Assembly (NCBI GenBank): GCA_029052085.1
Contig: JAIDJS010000079.1
Location: 1-11,569 of the forward strand
Source of the DNA: Eubacterium sp.
GTDB taxonomy: Bacteria > Bacillota > Clostridia > Oscillospirales > Acutalibacteraceae
Direction of reading: 5' to 3'
Length of the DNA: 11,569 nucleotides
Positions 5,485 to 11,569 of this stretch are shown here, in pieces. Below the pieces are notes generated by a model, which worked only from the letters and a program-made list of their open reading frames with translations, was not told the origin of the DNA and made no database searches. Each line of letters begins with the position of its first letter. The first letter of the stretch is position 1. Made by a program: the position numbers and the translations under genes.

Positions 5485-5513
5485 TTGATTATTTTAATGA
5501 AATCGTATATACT
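5485..5513 (+). promoter_or_regulatory. Sigma-A promoter of the ABC-F leader transcript
   Basis: TTGATT (5485-5490), a 17-base spacer and TATACT (5508-5513) form a strong promoter. Transcription should start near 5520, so the RNA carries a leader of roughly 240 bases before the ABC-F start codon. Such a length is unusual unless the leader is regulatory. Confidence 0.82.
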
Positions 5514-5544
5514 GAATAAGAATTAAAAAGAAAGAGGTGAAAGA

Positions 5545-5568
5545 ATGTATAACTTTTCTTGCAGATAA
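5545..5568 (+). CDS. Leader peptide MYNFSCR of the ABC-F attenuator
   Basis: A 7-codon ORF (ATG to TAA) encodes MYNFSCR and begins about 25 bases after the predicted transcription start. It is preceded by a good ribosome binding site, AGAGGTGA (5533-5540). Codons 2 to 7 coincide with the 5' arm of a stem (5548-5564) whose partner is 5618-5633, so a ribosome on this ORF would stop that stem forming. Drug-inducible ABC-F, erm and msr genes are known to use short leader ORFs this way. I do not recognise this peptide sequence. The ORF is very short, so the evidence is the binding site, its position and the RNA pairing rather than composition. Confidence 0.72.
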   Translation: MYNFSCR

Positions 5569-5726
5569 AATTGAAATAAGCAGTAATGCCGTGTTTTTTT
5601 CGGCGTTGTTGCGTCTGTTGCAGAAAAGTTATAAATCTATTCACTCCTATATAATATAGTTTGCTGCCGTTTTTCGGCGGTATAATTGTGCTATTGCGAG
5701 CTGCAGGAATTAACTTTTTCTGCAGC
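5548..5726 (+). promoter_or_regulatory. Ribosome-mediated transcription attenuator with alternative stems
   Basis: Segment 1 (5548-5564, the leader ORF) pairs with segment 2 (5618-5633): ATAACTTTTCT against AGAAAAGTTAT, then a bulged T and GCAG. Inside lies a 12-bp hairpin with wobbles (5580-5591 with 5601-5612). Segment 2 can instead pair with segment 3 (5711-5726), where TAACTTTTTCTGCA differs from segment 1 mainly by the position of one extra T. Segment 3 forms the loop and 3' arm of the terminator at 5698-5728, so pairing 2:3 destroys the terminator. Expected logic: free leader gives 1:2 and termination; a ribosome stalled on the leader ORF gives 2:3 and read-through into the ABC-F gene. 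A separate GCTGCCG / CGGCGGT hairpin sits at 5663-5681. Pairings were read by eye and no energies were computed. Confidence 0.75.
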
Positions 5727-5737
5727 TCATATTTTTT
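5698..5737 (+). terminator. Intrinsic terminator inside the ABC-F leader
   Basis: GAGCTGCAG (5698-5706) pairs perfectly with CTGCAGCTC (5720-5728), with up to three further A-T/G-T pairs toward the loop. It is followed by ATATTTTTT. It ends about 25 bases before the ABC-F start codon and just ahead of that gene's ribosome binding site. A terminator placed between promoter and gene is itself a sign of attenuation. Confidence 0.88.
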
Positions 5738-5762
5738 GCTTAAATAAAGGAGGAAAGCAACT

Positions 5763-7223
5763 ATGTCTATGATTAAGGTTGAACATTTAACCTTTGCTTA
5801 TCCAAGAGGAAAGGATTATATTTTTGAAAATGTCAGCTTTCAGATAGATACGGATTGGAAGCTTGGTTTTGTCGGCAGAAACGGAAGAGGAAAAACAACC
5901 TTTTTAAATCTTCTTCTGGGCAAATATGAATACAGCGGAAAGATAATATCCTCTGTTCAGTTTGATTATTTTCCATATCCTGTTGAGGATAAAACCATGA
6001 TTACTATGGAGGTTCTGCAAATGGTTTGTCCGCTTGCAGAGGAATGGGAAATTATGCGTGAGCTATCATTGCTGCATGTTGAAGCGGATGTGCTTTATCG
6101 TTCGTTTGAAACACTTTCAAACGGTGAGCAAACAAAGGTTCTGCTTGCTGCACTGTTTTTGAATGAAGGGCATTTTCTTTTGATTGATGAGCCTACCAAT
6201 CATCTGGATACCACAGCAAGAAAACAGGTTGCAGCTTATCTTAAAAAGAAAAAGGGCTTTATATTGGTGTCGCATGACCGCAGTTTTTTAGATGTCTGCG
6301 TTGATCATATATTATCATTAAACCGAACAAATATTGAGGTGCAGAGCGGTAATTTTTCTTCATATATGATGAATTTTGAGCGGCAGAATGAATTTGAAGC
6401 GGCGCAGAATGAAAGGCTGCAAAAGAATATAAAGCAGCTGCAGCAATCGGCAAGGCGCTCTGCGATATGGTCTGATCGTATTGAAGCCAAAAAAATCGGT
6501 GCATATGATAAAGGATATGTAGGTCATAAGGCAGCAAAGATGATGAAACGTTCAAAGGCAATTGAAGCAAGAACGGAGCAGGCAATAGAGCAGAAATCAA
6601 AGCTTTTAAAGAACGTAGAAACAGCTGAGGAGTTAAAGCTTTTTCCTAAAAGCTACCATTCCGATTTGCTGGCATCATTTTCCGATACCGCTGTATCCTA
6701 TGACGGAAAAATGGTATGCAAACCCGTTTCGTTTACAATAAACAGAGGCGACCGTATTGCGCTTGACGGTAAAAACGGAAGCGGAAAAAGTAGTTTGTTA
6801 AAGCTGCTTGCCGGTAAAAATATAGAGTATATCGGCAAAGTTTTTATCGGTTCGAATTTGATTATTTCCTATGTTCCTCAGGATACCTCGTATCTAAAGG
6901 GGAATCTTTCTGATTTTGCAAAAGAAAGCAATATGGATGAAAGCCTGTTTAAAACCGTTTTAAGCAAGCTTGATTTTAATGAAACTCAGTTTTCAAAGGA
7001 TATGCAGAATTTATCCGAAGGGCAGAAGAAAAAGATTCTGATTGCAAAAAGCCTTTGTGAACAGGCACATTTGTATATCTGGGATGAACCACTTAATTTT
7101 ATTGACGTTTATTCCAGAATGCAGCTTGAACAGCTTATAAAGAATTTTTCGCCTACGATGATTTTTGTTGAGCATGACAGCGTATTCAAAGAAGCAACAG
7201 CAACAAAGATAATCGAAATATAA
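5763..7223 (+). CDS. ABC-F ribosomal protection protein, Lsa/Vga/CplR-like
   Basis: This soluble twin-ATPase protein has no membrane domain. ABC-F proteins of this branch bind the ribosomal E site and dislodge drugs from the peptidyl-transferase centre, typically lincosamides, streptogramin A and pleuromutilins. The first nucleotide-binding domain has Walker A GRNGRGKT (38-45), signature LSNGEQ (118-123), Walker B LLIDEP with DEPTNHLD (139-149) and switch H171. The linker (about 195-300) is basic and helical and includes GYVGHKAAKMMKRSK, typical of the Lsa/Vga type. The second domain has GKNGSGKS (336-343), LSEGQ (417-421), the variant DEPLNFID (441-448) and H471. That variant is characteristic of resistance ABC-Fs. 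The length (486 residues) fits. AAGGAGG (5747-5753) favours the first of two nearby ATGs (5763 over 5769). Expression appears controlled by the leader attenuator upstream. The exact drug spectrum cannot be read from sequence; a housekeeping ABC-F role is less likely. Confidence 0.9.
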   Translation: MSMIKVEHLTFAYPRGKDYIFENVSFQIDTDWKLGFVGRNGRGKTTFLNLLLGKYEYSGKIISSVQFDYFPYPVEDKTMITMEVLQMVCPLAEEWEIMRELSLLHVEADVLYRSFETLSNGEQTKVLLAALFLNEGHFLLIDEPTNHLDTTARKQVAAYLKKKKGFILVSHDRSFLDVCVDHILSLNRTNIEVQSGNFSSYMMNFERQNEFEAAQNERLQKNIKQLQQSARRSAIWSDRIEAKKIGAYDKGYVGHKAAKMMKRSKAIEARTEQAIEQKSKLLKNVETAEELKLFPKSYHSDLLASFSDTAVSYDGKMVCKPVSFTINRGDRIALDGKNGSGKSSLLKLLAGKNIEYIGKVFIGSNLIISYVPQDTSYLKGNLSDFAKESNMDESLFKTVLSKLDFNETQFSKDMQNLSEGQKKKILIAKSLCEQAHLYIWDEPLNFIDVYSRMQLEQLIKNFSPTMIFVEHDSVFKEATATKIIEI

Positions 7224-10833: not shown

Positions 10834-11569
10834 ATGAATTTAATAAAAATCACTTTCAAAGAATTAAAATATTTTCTAATTCTCTGGTCAACACAGGCAT
10901 TATCACAGTTAGGCAGTTCAATGACGAACTATGCACTTATAGTCTGGTCATACACCGCTAAAGGTTCTGCGCTGACAACAGCATTGTTATCTGTCTGTTC
11001 TTATGCACCATATGTGATAATGAGTATTTTTGCAGGTGCGTTGAGTGATAAATGGAATAAAAAAGTCACAATGCTGGTCAGCGATACATTTGCCGCTTTG
11101 TGTACAATTTCAATTTTTGTTCTGCTGCAAACAGGCAGGCTTGAAATCTGGCATCTGTATTGTTTAAATGCGCTGAATGGATTGATGAATACAGTTCAGC
11201 AGCCTGCGTCAGATGTAGCAATAACGCTTTTAACACCAAAAAAGCATTATCAAAGGGTAAGCGGACTGCGTTCGTTTTCAAATGCGCTGATCAGTATTCT
11301 TACGCCAATCATTGCAACTGCTGTTTTGTCTTTTGCAAATCTGAAAACAGTTATTTATATTGACTTGTTTACCTTTGCAATTGCTTTTATCTCGTTAGCG
11401 TTTTTTGTTAAGATACCTGAATACAAAGCTGATGAAAATGCAGATTCGTTTTTAACATTAACAAAAAGCGGACTTGCTTATTTAAAACAGAACAGGGGTA
11501 TTTTAGATTTAATACTTTTTTTGGCTTGTATAAATCTTATTGCATCCATGTATAATGCTGCGTTTCATT
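10834..11569 (+). CDS. MFS exporter, macrolide-efflux (Mef)-type family, 3' end outside the window
   Basis: An uninterrupted frame begins with ATG at 10834 and runs off the right edge after 245 codons. AAGGAG (10819-10824), nine bases upstream, supports the start. The protein begins MNLIKITFKELKYFLILWST and has about six hydrophobic helices. Residues 14-40 (WSTQALSQLGSSMTNYAL) are typical of helix 1 in the Mef-like drug/proton antiporters. The loop between helices 2 and 3, GALSDKWNKK (68-77), is MFS motif A. Helix 4 has NGLMNTVQQPASDVAI (about 115-130). It should sit in the cytoplasmic membrane and export a small molecule using the proton gradient. The substrate is unknown, but a ribosome-targeting drug is plausible because a leader peptide and attenuator precede it. 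Roughly 40 percent of a normal 400-residue protein is missing because of the window edge. Confidence 0.85.
   Translation, partial: MNLIKITFKELKYFLILWSTQALSQLGSSMTNYALIVWSYTAKGSALTTALLSVCSYAPYVIMSIFAGALSDKWNKKVTMLVSDTFAALCTISIFVLLQTGRLEIWHLYCLNALNGLMNTVQQPASDVAITLLTPKKHYQRVSGLRSFSNALISILTPIIATAVLSFANLKTVIYIDLFTFAIAFISLAFFVKIPEYKADENADSFLTLTKSGLAYLKQNRGILDLILFLACINLIASMYNAAFH

Follow-up and report, generated by a model that had tools for sequence, protein, structure and literature searches.

A short upstream open reading frame (uORF) precedes the Lsa-like ABC-F gene of the window (the whole 11,569-nucleotide stretch of DNA that we analysed), and the leader that carries it is very probably a transcription attenuator that responds when a ribosome is arrested on the start codon of the uORF. 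We identified by computation the elements of this leader, two conserved pairings and a switch between them in nascent RNA. Most likely, a ribosome at the start codon acts as the sensor and the peptide does not, because about a quarter of the related leaders keep the pairing without translating the segment involved. The gene and the elements of its leader are the following:

5485..5513, plus strand: predicted promoter (TTGATT-17-TATACT), scoring 9 of 12, in a region where the count of promoter-like sequences (4, with 5.2 expected by chance) is not above background.
5533..5540, plus strand: Shine-Dalgarno (SD) sequence of the uORF, AGAGGTGA, which pairs within 5636-5648 in the OFF fold (75% of cells paired in 44 leaders).
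5545..5568, plus strand: uORF of 7 codons, MYNFSCR (ATG-TAT-AAC-TTT-TCT-TGC-AGA-TAA).
Within 5545..5568, plus strand: segment 1, codons 2-7 of the uORF, the 5' half of the anti-antiterminator.
5580..5612, plus strand: apical stem of the anti-antiterminator, GCAGTAATGCCG / CGGCGTTGTTGC, with double changes at 14 of 14 pairs.
5618..5633, plus strand: central segment 2, TTGCAGAAAAGTTATA, whose partner is either the uORF or the terminator loop plus 3' arm.
5656..5689, plus strand: hairpin between the central segment and the terminator, which would sit inside the antiterminator, at the position of the SL-2 pause hairpin of vmlR.
5698..5728, plus strand: intrinsic terminator hairpin, followed by ATATTTTTTG and with a U-rich tail at 5729-5738.
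5710..5725, plus strand: segment 3, terminator loop plus 3' arm, TTAACTTTTTCTGCAG, the antiterminator partner of the central segment.
5763..7223, plus strand: Lsa-like ABC-F ribosome-protection gene (486 aa), with SD AAAGGAGG at 5746-5753.

The protein encoded by the gene scores 498.4 bits with NF000355 (ribosomal protection-like ABC-F), above the curated cut-off of 380, and 747.3 bits with NF000167 (Lsa, NCBIfam), 2.7 below the curated cut-off of 750, hence the label 'Lsa-like'. Among solved chains, Lsa(A) (7nhk) is the nearest in sequence, with 421 bits, and the protein presumably functions in resistance. An MFS transporter cut by the end of the window (10834-11568) is weakly similar to Mef (macrolide-efflux) proteins, with about 92 bits for a cut-off of 800. 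Transcription probably starts at the predicted promoter. In 43 related leaders the mean best promoter score is 9.0, versus 7.66 in shuffled sequences, and 12 of the 43 score at least 10 (2% when shuffled); the -10 element ends 26-34 nt upstream of the uORF start in 27 of the 28 leaders scoring at least 9.

The pairing of the uORF with the downstream leader reaches -17.0 kcal/mol in the window, versus a mean of -9.1 (sd 1.7) in approximate dinucleotide shuffles, none of which (0/300) was as good. For the leader as a whole, the folding energy is -80.3 kcal/mol (z = -6.8, 0/200 shuffles), and the minimum free energy structure contains at once the uORF:central helix and the terminator, the only one found in a terminator scan (0.3 expected). 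The first-pass annotation of this DNA had proposed a three-segment ribosome-sensing attenuator in front of an Lsa-like ABC-F gene, with the uORF and the terminator loop plus 3' arm competing for the central segment. This reading is supported: the SD, the uORF, the central segment and the terminator were all found, the positions it gave are accurate to a few bases, and the two pairings of the central segment are mutually exclusive by position and kept in relatives.

We collected relatives of the locus in two sets: L001-L030 are the best 30 loci among the 98 genomes nearest the window, and L031-L110 are the 80 best loci, of at least 591, obtained when contigs of named genomes were scanned. Five of them (L002, L004, L031, L032 and L060) have almost no upstream DNA, which left 105 of the 110 usable. 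A match to the leader model (E ≤0.05) lies on the gene strand just upstream in 71 of the 105, a count in which 44 leaders trained the model and several species are present twice. The remaining 34 comprise 17 loci of Bacilli with another leader, 14 of other bacteria, L013 (with 207 nt only), and L029 and L030, which are distant ABC-F genes. We then searched genomes with the RNA model built on the 44 leaders, and found matches in 29 out of 391 at the class level, 23 out of 398 at the phylum level, 9 out of 11 in one genus and 45 out of 148 in one family, from which 29 new loci were fetched. This family is called here Paenibacillus-like, a label deduced from the resemblance of its leaders to that of L091 (Paenibacillus catalpae). 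Among the 82 loci fetched with the model (L112-L193, the window's own excluded, and L134 being the same gene as L015), 79 leaders precede an ABC-F gene and 3 precede putative remnants; this specificity count covers about two-thirds of the matching genomes of the 148-genome family search. As judged from named loci only, the leader is present in Clostridia, in assemblies labelled Erysipelotrichaceae and in Paenibacillus-like genomes; one named carrier is Eubacterium coprostanoligenes ATCC 51222 (L033). No Rfam family matched the window at the gathering threshold, and a literature search within one paper collection found no description of this leader.

Several loci depart from the common pattern. 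The leaders of L146, L153 and L180 look intact, and we read their ABC-F genes as shrunk to short remnants. In L123 (2-1426, minus strand) the same type of leader precedes an ABC-F gene of another subfamily, nearer Msr/CplR than Lsa, a hint that leaders are exchanged between subfamilies. The relative at L084 keeps the central segment and the terminator, and the pairing half of its uORF seems to be missing. In L005, L006 and L033-L040, the first leader is followed by a second uORF with a VTH...LR core, immediately ahead of the ABC-F gene, so that several genes seem to carry two tandem leaders; uORFs of this type also occur in L041 and L043, which have no model match to the first leader, and in Bacilli loci among L079-L110. 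The RNA model often matches the opposite strand of the same leader with a lower score (5535-5652 on the minus strand of the window, and many other loci), because the helices are near-palindromic.

Aligning the leaders of homologues, a check put forward in the first-pass annotation, shows that both pairings of the central segment have been kept through compensating changes. In the alignment of 44 leaders, the uORFs mostly read M-x-x-[F/I/S]-[S/F]-C, with a seventh residue present or absent. The 14 pairs of the uORF:central helix are formed in 94.6% of the cells, and 9 of the 14 show changes on both sides; this conservation argues against a chance pairing. Taken over all 35 named pairs, 85.0% of the cells are paired, versus 41.5-49.6% when the segments are slid, and 137 cells are changed on both sides, versus 51 in shuffled data. 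We also analysed a nonredundant set of 85 leaders, out of 97 rows, in which segments were positioned by consensus and not by pairing. There, the uORF:central helix is formed in 92.1% of the cells (86.7% with shuffled partners, 0/2000 as high; 44-59% when slid) and the antiterminator, i.e., the pairing between the central segment and the terminator loop plus 3' arm, in 87.6% (84.6% shuffled, 0/2000; 46-54% slid). The baseline for these figures is the shuffled value and not zero, since the consensus strings are themselves complementary. Position 8 of the central segment is a G in 31 leaders; the facing terminator letter is a C in 21 of these and the facing uORF letter in 9, suggesting that the antiterminator covaries in its own right, including in leaders whose uORF retains a wobble pair. 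Once relatedness is accounted for, 8 independent pairs are supported, of which on average 5.3 change in the same way and 0.0 in the opposite way (median p 0.06): the covariation of the antiterminator goes in the right direction and is underpowered. For binding of the central segment, the median is -15.7 kcal/mol with the loop plus 3' arm, versus -4.5 with the 5' arm, and the 3' side is the stronger partner in 84 out of 85 leaders.

We folded the nascent RNAs of the window with and without a ribosome footprint from -15 to +15 on the AUG. When the AUG is free, the uORF:central helix holds (about 10 pairs), the terminator grows while it emerges and the antiterminator has 0 pairs. When the AUG is blocked, the antiterminator starts from the loop, reaches a maximum of 11.8 expected pairs and is ahead while the transcript is 15 to 4 nt short of the end of the 3' arm as modelled. 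The first-pass annotation had suggested that a ribosome stalled on the uORF would release the central segment to break the terminator. In the nascent RNA with the AUG blocked the antiterminator leads; in the full-length leader at equilibrium the terminator is favoured over it, even with this block. Antitermination at equilibrium is thus ruled out in the window: because the terminator is more stable at full length, the switch must be kinetic, and read-through depends on the antiterminator forming first. We scored the antiterminator as leading if, for at least three nascent lengths, its expected pairs numbered 4 or more and exceeded those of the terminator. By this definition it leads in 79 of the 85 leaders with the AUG blocked, in 5 with the AUG free and in 4 with a control block elsewhere. 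A clean switch (with the AUG free, at least 6 uORF:central pairs and no lead; with the AUG blocked, a lead) was obtained in 74 of the 85 leaders and was absent in 11. In the Paenibacillus-like set, all 28 leaders analysed (of 29 placed) switch, including 16 in which the uORF is an AUG followed directly by a stop codon.

These elements suggest the following mechanism. Without drug, the ribosome would depart and the uORF would pair with the central segment, forming the anti-antiterminator; with this helix in place, the terminator would form and transcription would end before the ABC-F gene. If a drug stopped elongation at its first steps, the ribosome would be kept on the AUG, with its footprint over the pairing half of the uORF. 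A ribosome in this position would cover at least part of the pairing segment, by analogy with the toeprint at +16 in the vmlR leader of Bacillus subtilis (PMC9226507). The central segment, once freed, would capture the emerging loop of the terminator and proceed into the 3' arm, allowing RNA polymerase to read through. The peptide would be largely dispensable past the first codon or two, and the conserved letters FSC would be explained by base pairing. Termination and read-through presumably occur in vivo along these lines, and the expected inducers, given the protein family and the published parallels, are lincosamides, pleuromutilins or streptogramin A.

A ribosome on the leader could also expose the SD of the ABC-F gene, and such translation attenuation might act besides the attenuation of transcription. 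It is documented alongside transcription attenuation for cplR of Clostridioides difficile (PMC10201436), and the second uORF of some relatives adjoins the gene. However, none of the conserved helices includes the main SD of the window, and the terminator finder had a hit in 96 of the 97 leader rows (three of these hits, in L117, L145 and L160, look wrong, and the sole miss is the antisense row of L158). We therefore regard control of translation as unlikely to be the explanation of the window leader. The row of L158, which appeared to be a leader with uORF MQ, is an antisense match: the gene is encoded on the opposite strand and its actual uORF is AUG-UAG. It was dropped from the uORF census described below and, having no terminator, is absent from the set of 85 leaders, though still within the 97 rows.

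The uORFs of the family separate the role of the start codon from that of the peptide. Our census includes 125 leaders, with redundancy: 124 starts placed by script, in 120 different sequence contexts, and that of L137 (uORF MRN). In 32 of the 124 leaders (33 of 125 with L137), the stop codon of the uORF lies at or ahead of the pairing segment, as in L129, where the uORF is MK, and 18 leaders, in 17 different contexts and including L177, have an AUG followed directly by a stop codon (9 TAA, 6 TAG, 3 TGA). In two others (L159 and L189) the segment is read in other frames. Across the family, uORFs have 1, 2, 3, 5, 6, 7 or 8 codons, and the segment is untranslated or lies in any of the three frames. 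What is preserved is a nucleotide segment close 3' of the AUG. Its 8-letter core is fully paired with the central segment in 117 of the 124 leaders, which were chosen by their uORF or by the RNA model, itself favouring the uORF:central helix. The AUG is 7-12 nt before the segment in 124 out of 124, a narrow spacing that is partly by construction because starts were searched at 5-16 nt with a preference for 10. A quick tree of 123 ABC-F proteins implies at least 14 switches into or out of the early-stop state and 8 for the AUG-stop state. In AUG-stop leaders, the SD is separated from the AUG by either about 12 nt or just 3 nt; some of these leaders, e.g., L091, may have a longer in-frame start. 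Across relatives, the pairing is independent of the peptide.

These results weigh on the possibility that the nascent peptide M-x-N-F-S-C-K/R is itself the sensor, as in the macrolide-sensing Erm leaders. Among the 80 uORFs of 6 or 7 codons (in a set of 96 leaders), 79 have Cys at codon 6, and 74 of these have Ser at codon 5, as might be expected of a stalling peptide. Yet codon 6 is TGC in 78 of the 79 and TGT in one, while codons 2 and 3 vary, third positions included, which indicates a constraint on nucleotides. The stalling on MYNFSCR suggested by the first-pass annotation does not hold as a peptide-dependent event: the pairing persists in the early-stop leaders and in the two with other frames, which led us to reject peptide-specific stalling, now very unlikely. 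Nor does the leader belong to the Erm type, defined by a conserved and translated stalling peptide, given the early-stop, AUG-stop and frame-shifted uORFs of its relatives. The published variants of the vmlR uORF offer a point in favour of the peptide, as MRK induces less well than MIN, although MDN and MDK are at least as good (PMC9226507). These results are mostly in line with a sensor at the start codon. The importance of the uORF sequence in vmlR is stressed in PMC10201436 and, together with the result for MRK, this suggests that the first codons may not be neutral and may tune sensing.

A constitutive leader, in which drug-independent hairpins merely set the basal level of expression or protect the RNA, is highly improbable, since mutually exclusive and co-conserved pairings, a start codon nearby and a switch predicted in most leaders would have no obvious role without switching. 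Most improbable is an amino-acid starvation attenuator sensing low Cys-tRNA by a stall at the Cys codon: in spite of the near-invariant Cys of the longer uORFs and of the cysteine codons thought to drive cysS attenuators elsewhere (PMC8632094), we reject it because many relatives, namely those of the early-stop class, do not translate the Cys codon, and the gene downstream encodes a ribosome-protection ABC-F and is no cysteine gene.

ABC-F resistance genes are induced by drugs via tiny uORFs, and how the uORF consensus relates to the inducing drug is a question that PMC10201436 recommends studying. The leader family provides a natural mutational series of uORFs on one conserved RNA switch, which makes the model of start-codon occupancy directly testable. 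We lean slightly towards a bolder version of this model, in which the family would use the bare start codon as its sensor and need no peptide. Many Paenibacillus-like uORFs would have shrunk to an AUG plus a stop codon, a drug-bound initiating or terminating ribosome would control a resistance gene without any peptide bond, and the antiterminator would take the loop first and then the 3' arm. If the start codon is indeed what is read, AUG-stop uORFs would be a minimal bacterial drug sensor. Searches with the RNA model could also point to resistance genes of gut anaerobes that may be inducible.

The leader of the window has the features of ABC-F attenuators of the vmlR/vgaL/cplR kind: an SD and a short uORF ahead of the ABC-F gene, the inclusion of the uORF in an anti-antiterminator helix and, by prediction and conservation, an intrinsic terminator with a mutually exclusive antiterminator. 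Whereas the first-pass annotation did not recognise the arrangement, the order of the elements is that of the vmlR leader of B. subtilis (uORF MIN; PMC9226507): a short uORF in the anti-antiterminator, a hairpin, an intrinsic terminator, an antiterminator closing over the hairpin and an ABC-F gene downstream. The vmlR uORF, AUGAUUAAC, is identical to the first nine uORF bases of the consensus of 44 leaders, and has 3 codons versus 7 in the window. What does set the arrangement apart is the arm of the terminator that is used. In the leaders upstream of lsa-like genes of Bacilli, the central segment takes the 5' arm in 10 out of 10 measured (12 were tried, with L079 and L086 left out), whereas in the family of the window it takes the loop plus 3' arm; the choice of vmlR was gauged on these Bacilli relatives only.

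The same layout is found in the Rfam family RF02452 (ncr1575), listed as a Bacillus sRNA, which lies upstream of lsa-like genes in 12 of the 18 Bacilli loci scanned (e.g., L096:2567-2783). Its consensus contains the uORF AUGAUUAACUAA. Its sequence and location make RF02452 resemble the leader of an ABC-F attenuator more than a separate sRNA, and the shared uORF suggests that it may be the vmlR leader of B. subtilis. It is the best of 8 permissive Rfam matches to the window leader, with 19.7 bits (E 1.2) for a gathering score of 60: the window leader would work in the same way and is not a member by this score.

The other parallels come from two studies. The cplR leader of C. difficile (uORF MR[I/M]; PMC10201436) resembles that of the window in its uORF-dependent drug induction of an ABC-F gene in Clostridia; it differs in the ABC-F subfamily and in a terminator stem that also sequesters the main SD, a feature not seen in the window. 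The leader of LsaA in Enterococcus faecalis (PMC10201436) is associated with the nearest characterised protein family, but its uORF, MAGN, is different; the comparison covers the protein. The are5sc and tiaA leaders of Streptomyces belong to other bacteria and have other uORFs (MLV and MVGDDDISG), and toeprinting shows that LSAP drugs stall ribosomes at their uORF start codons (PMC12421871), the sensing step that we propose for the window. In summary, the architecture is known from the vmlR and cplR attenuators, and the sequence, the antiterminator on the 3' arm and the AUG-stop uORFs are new.
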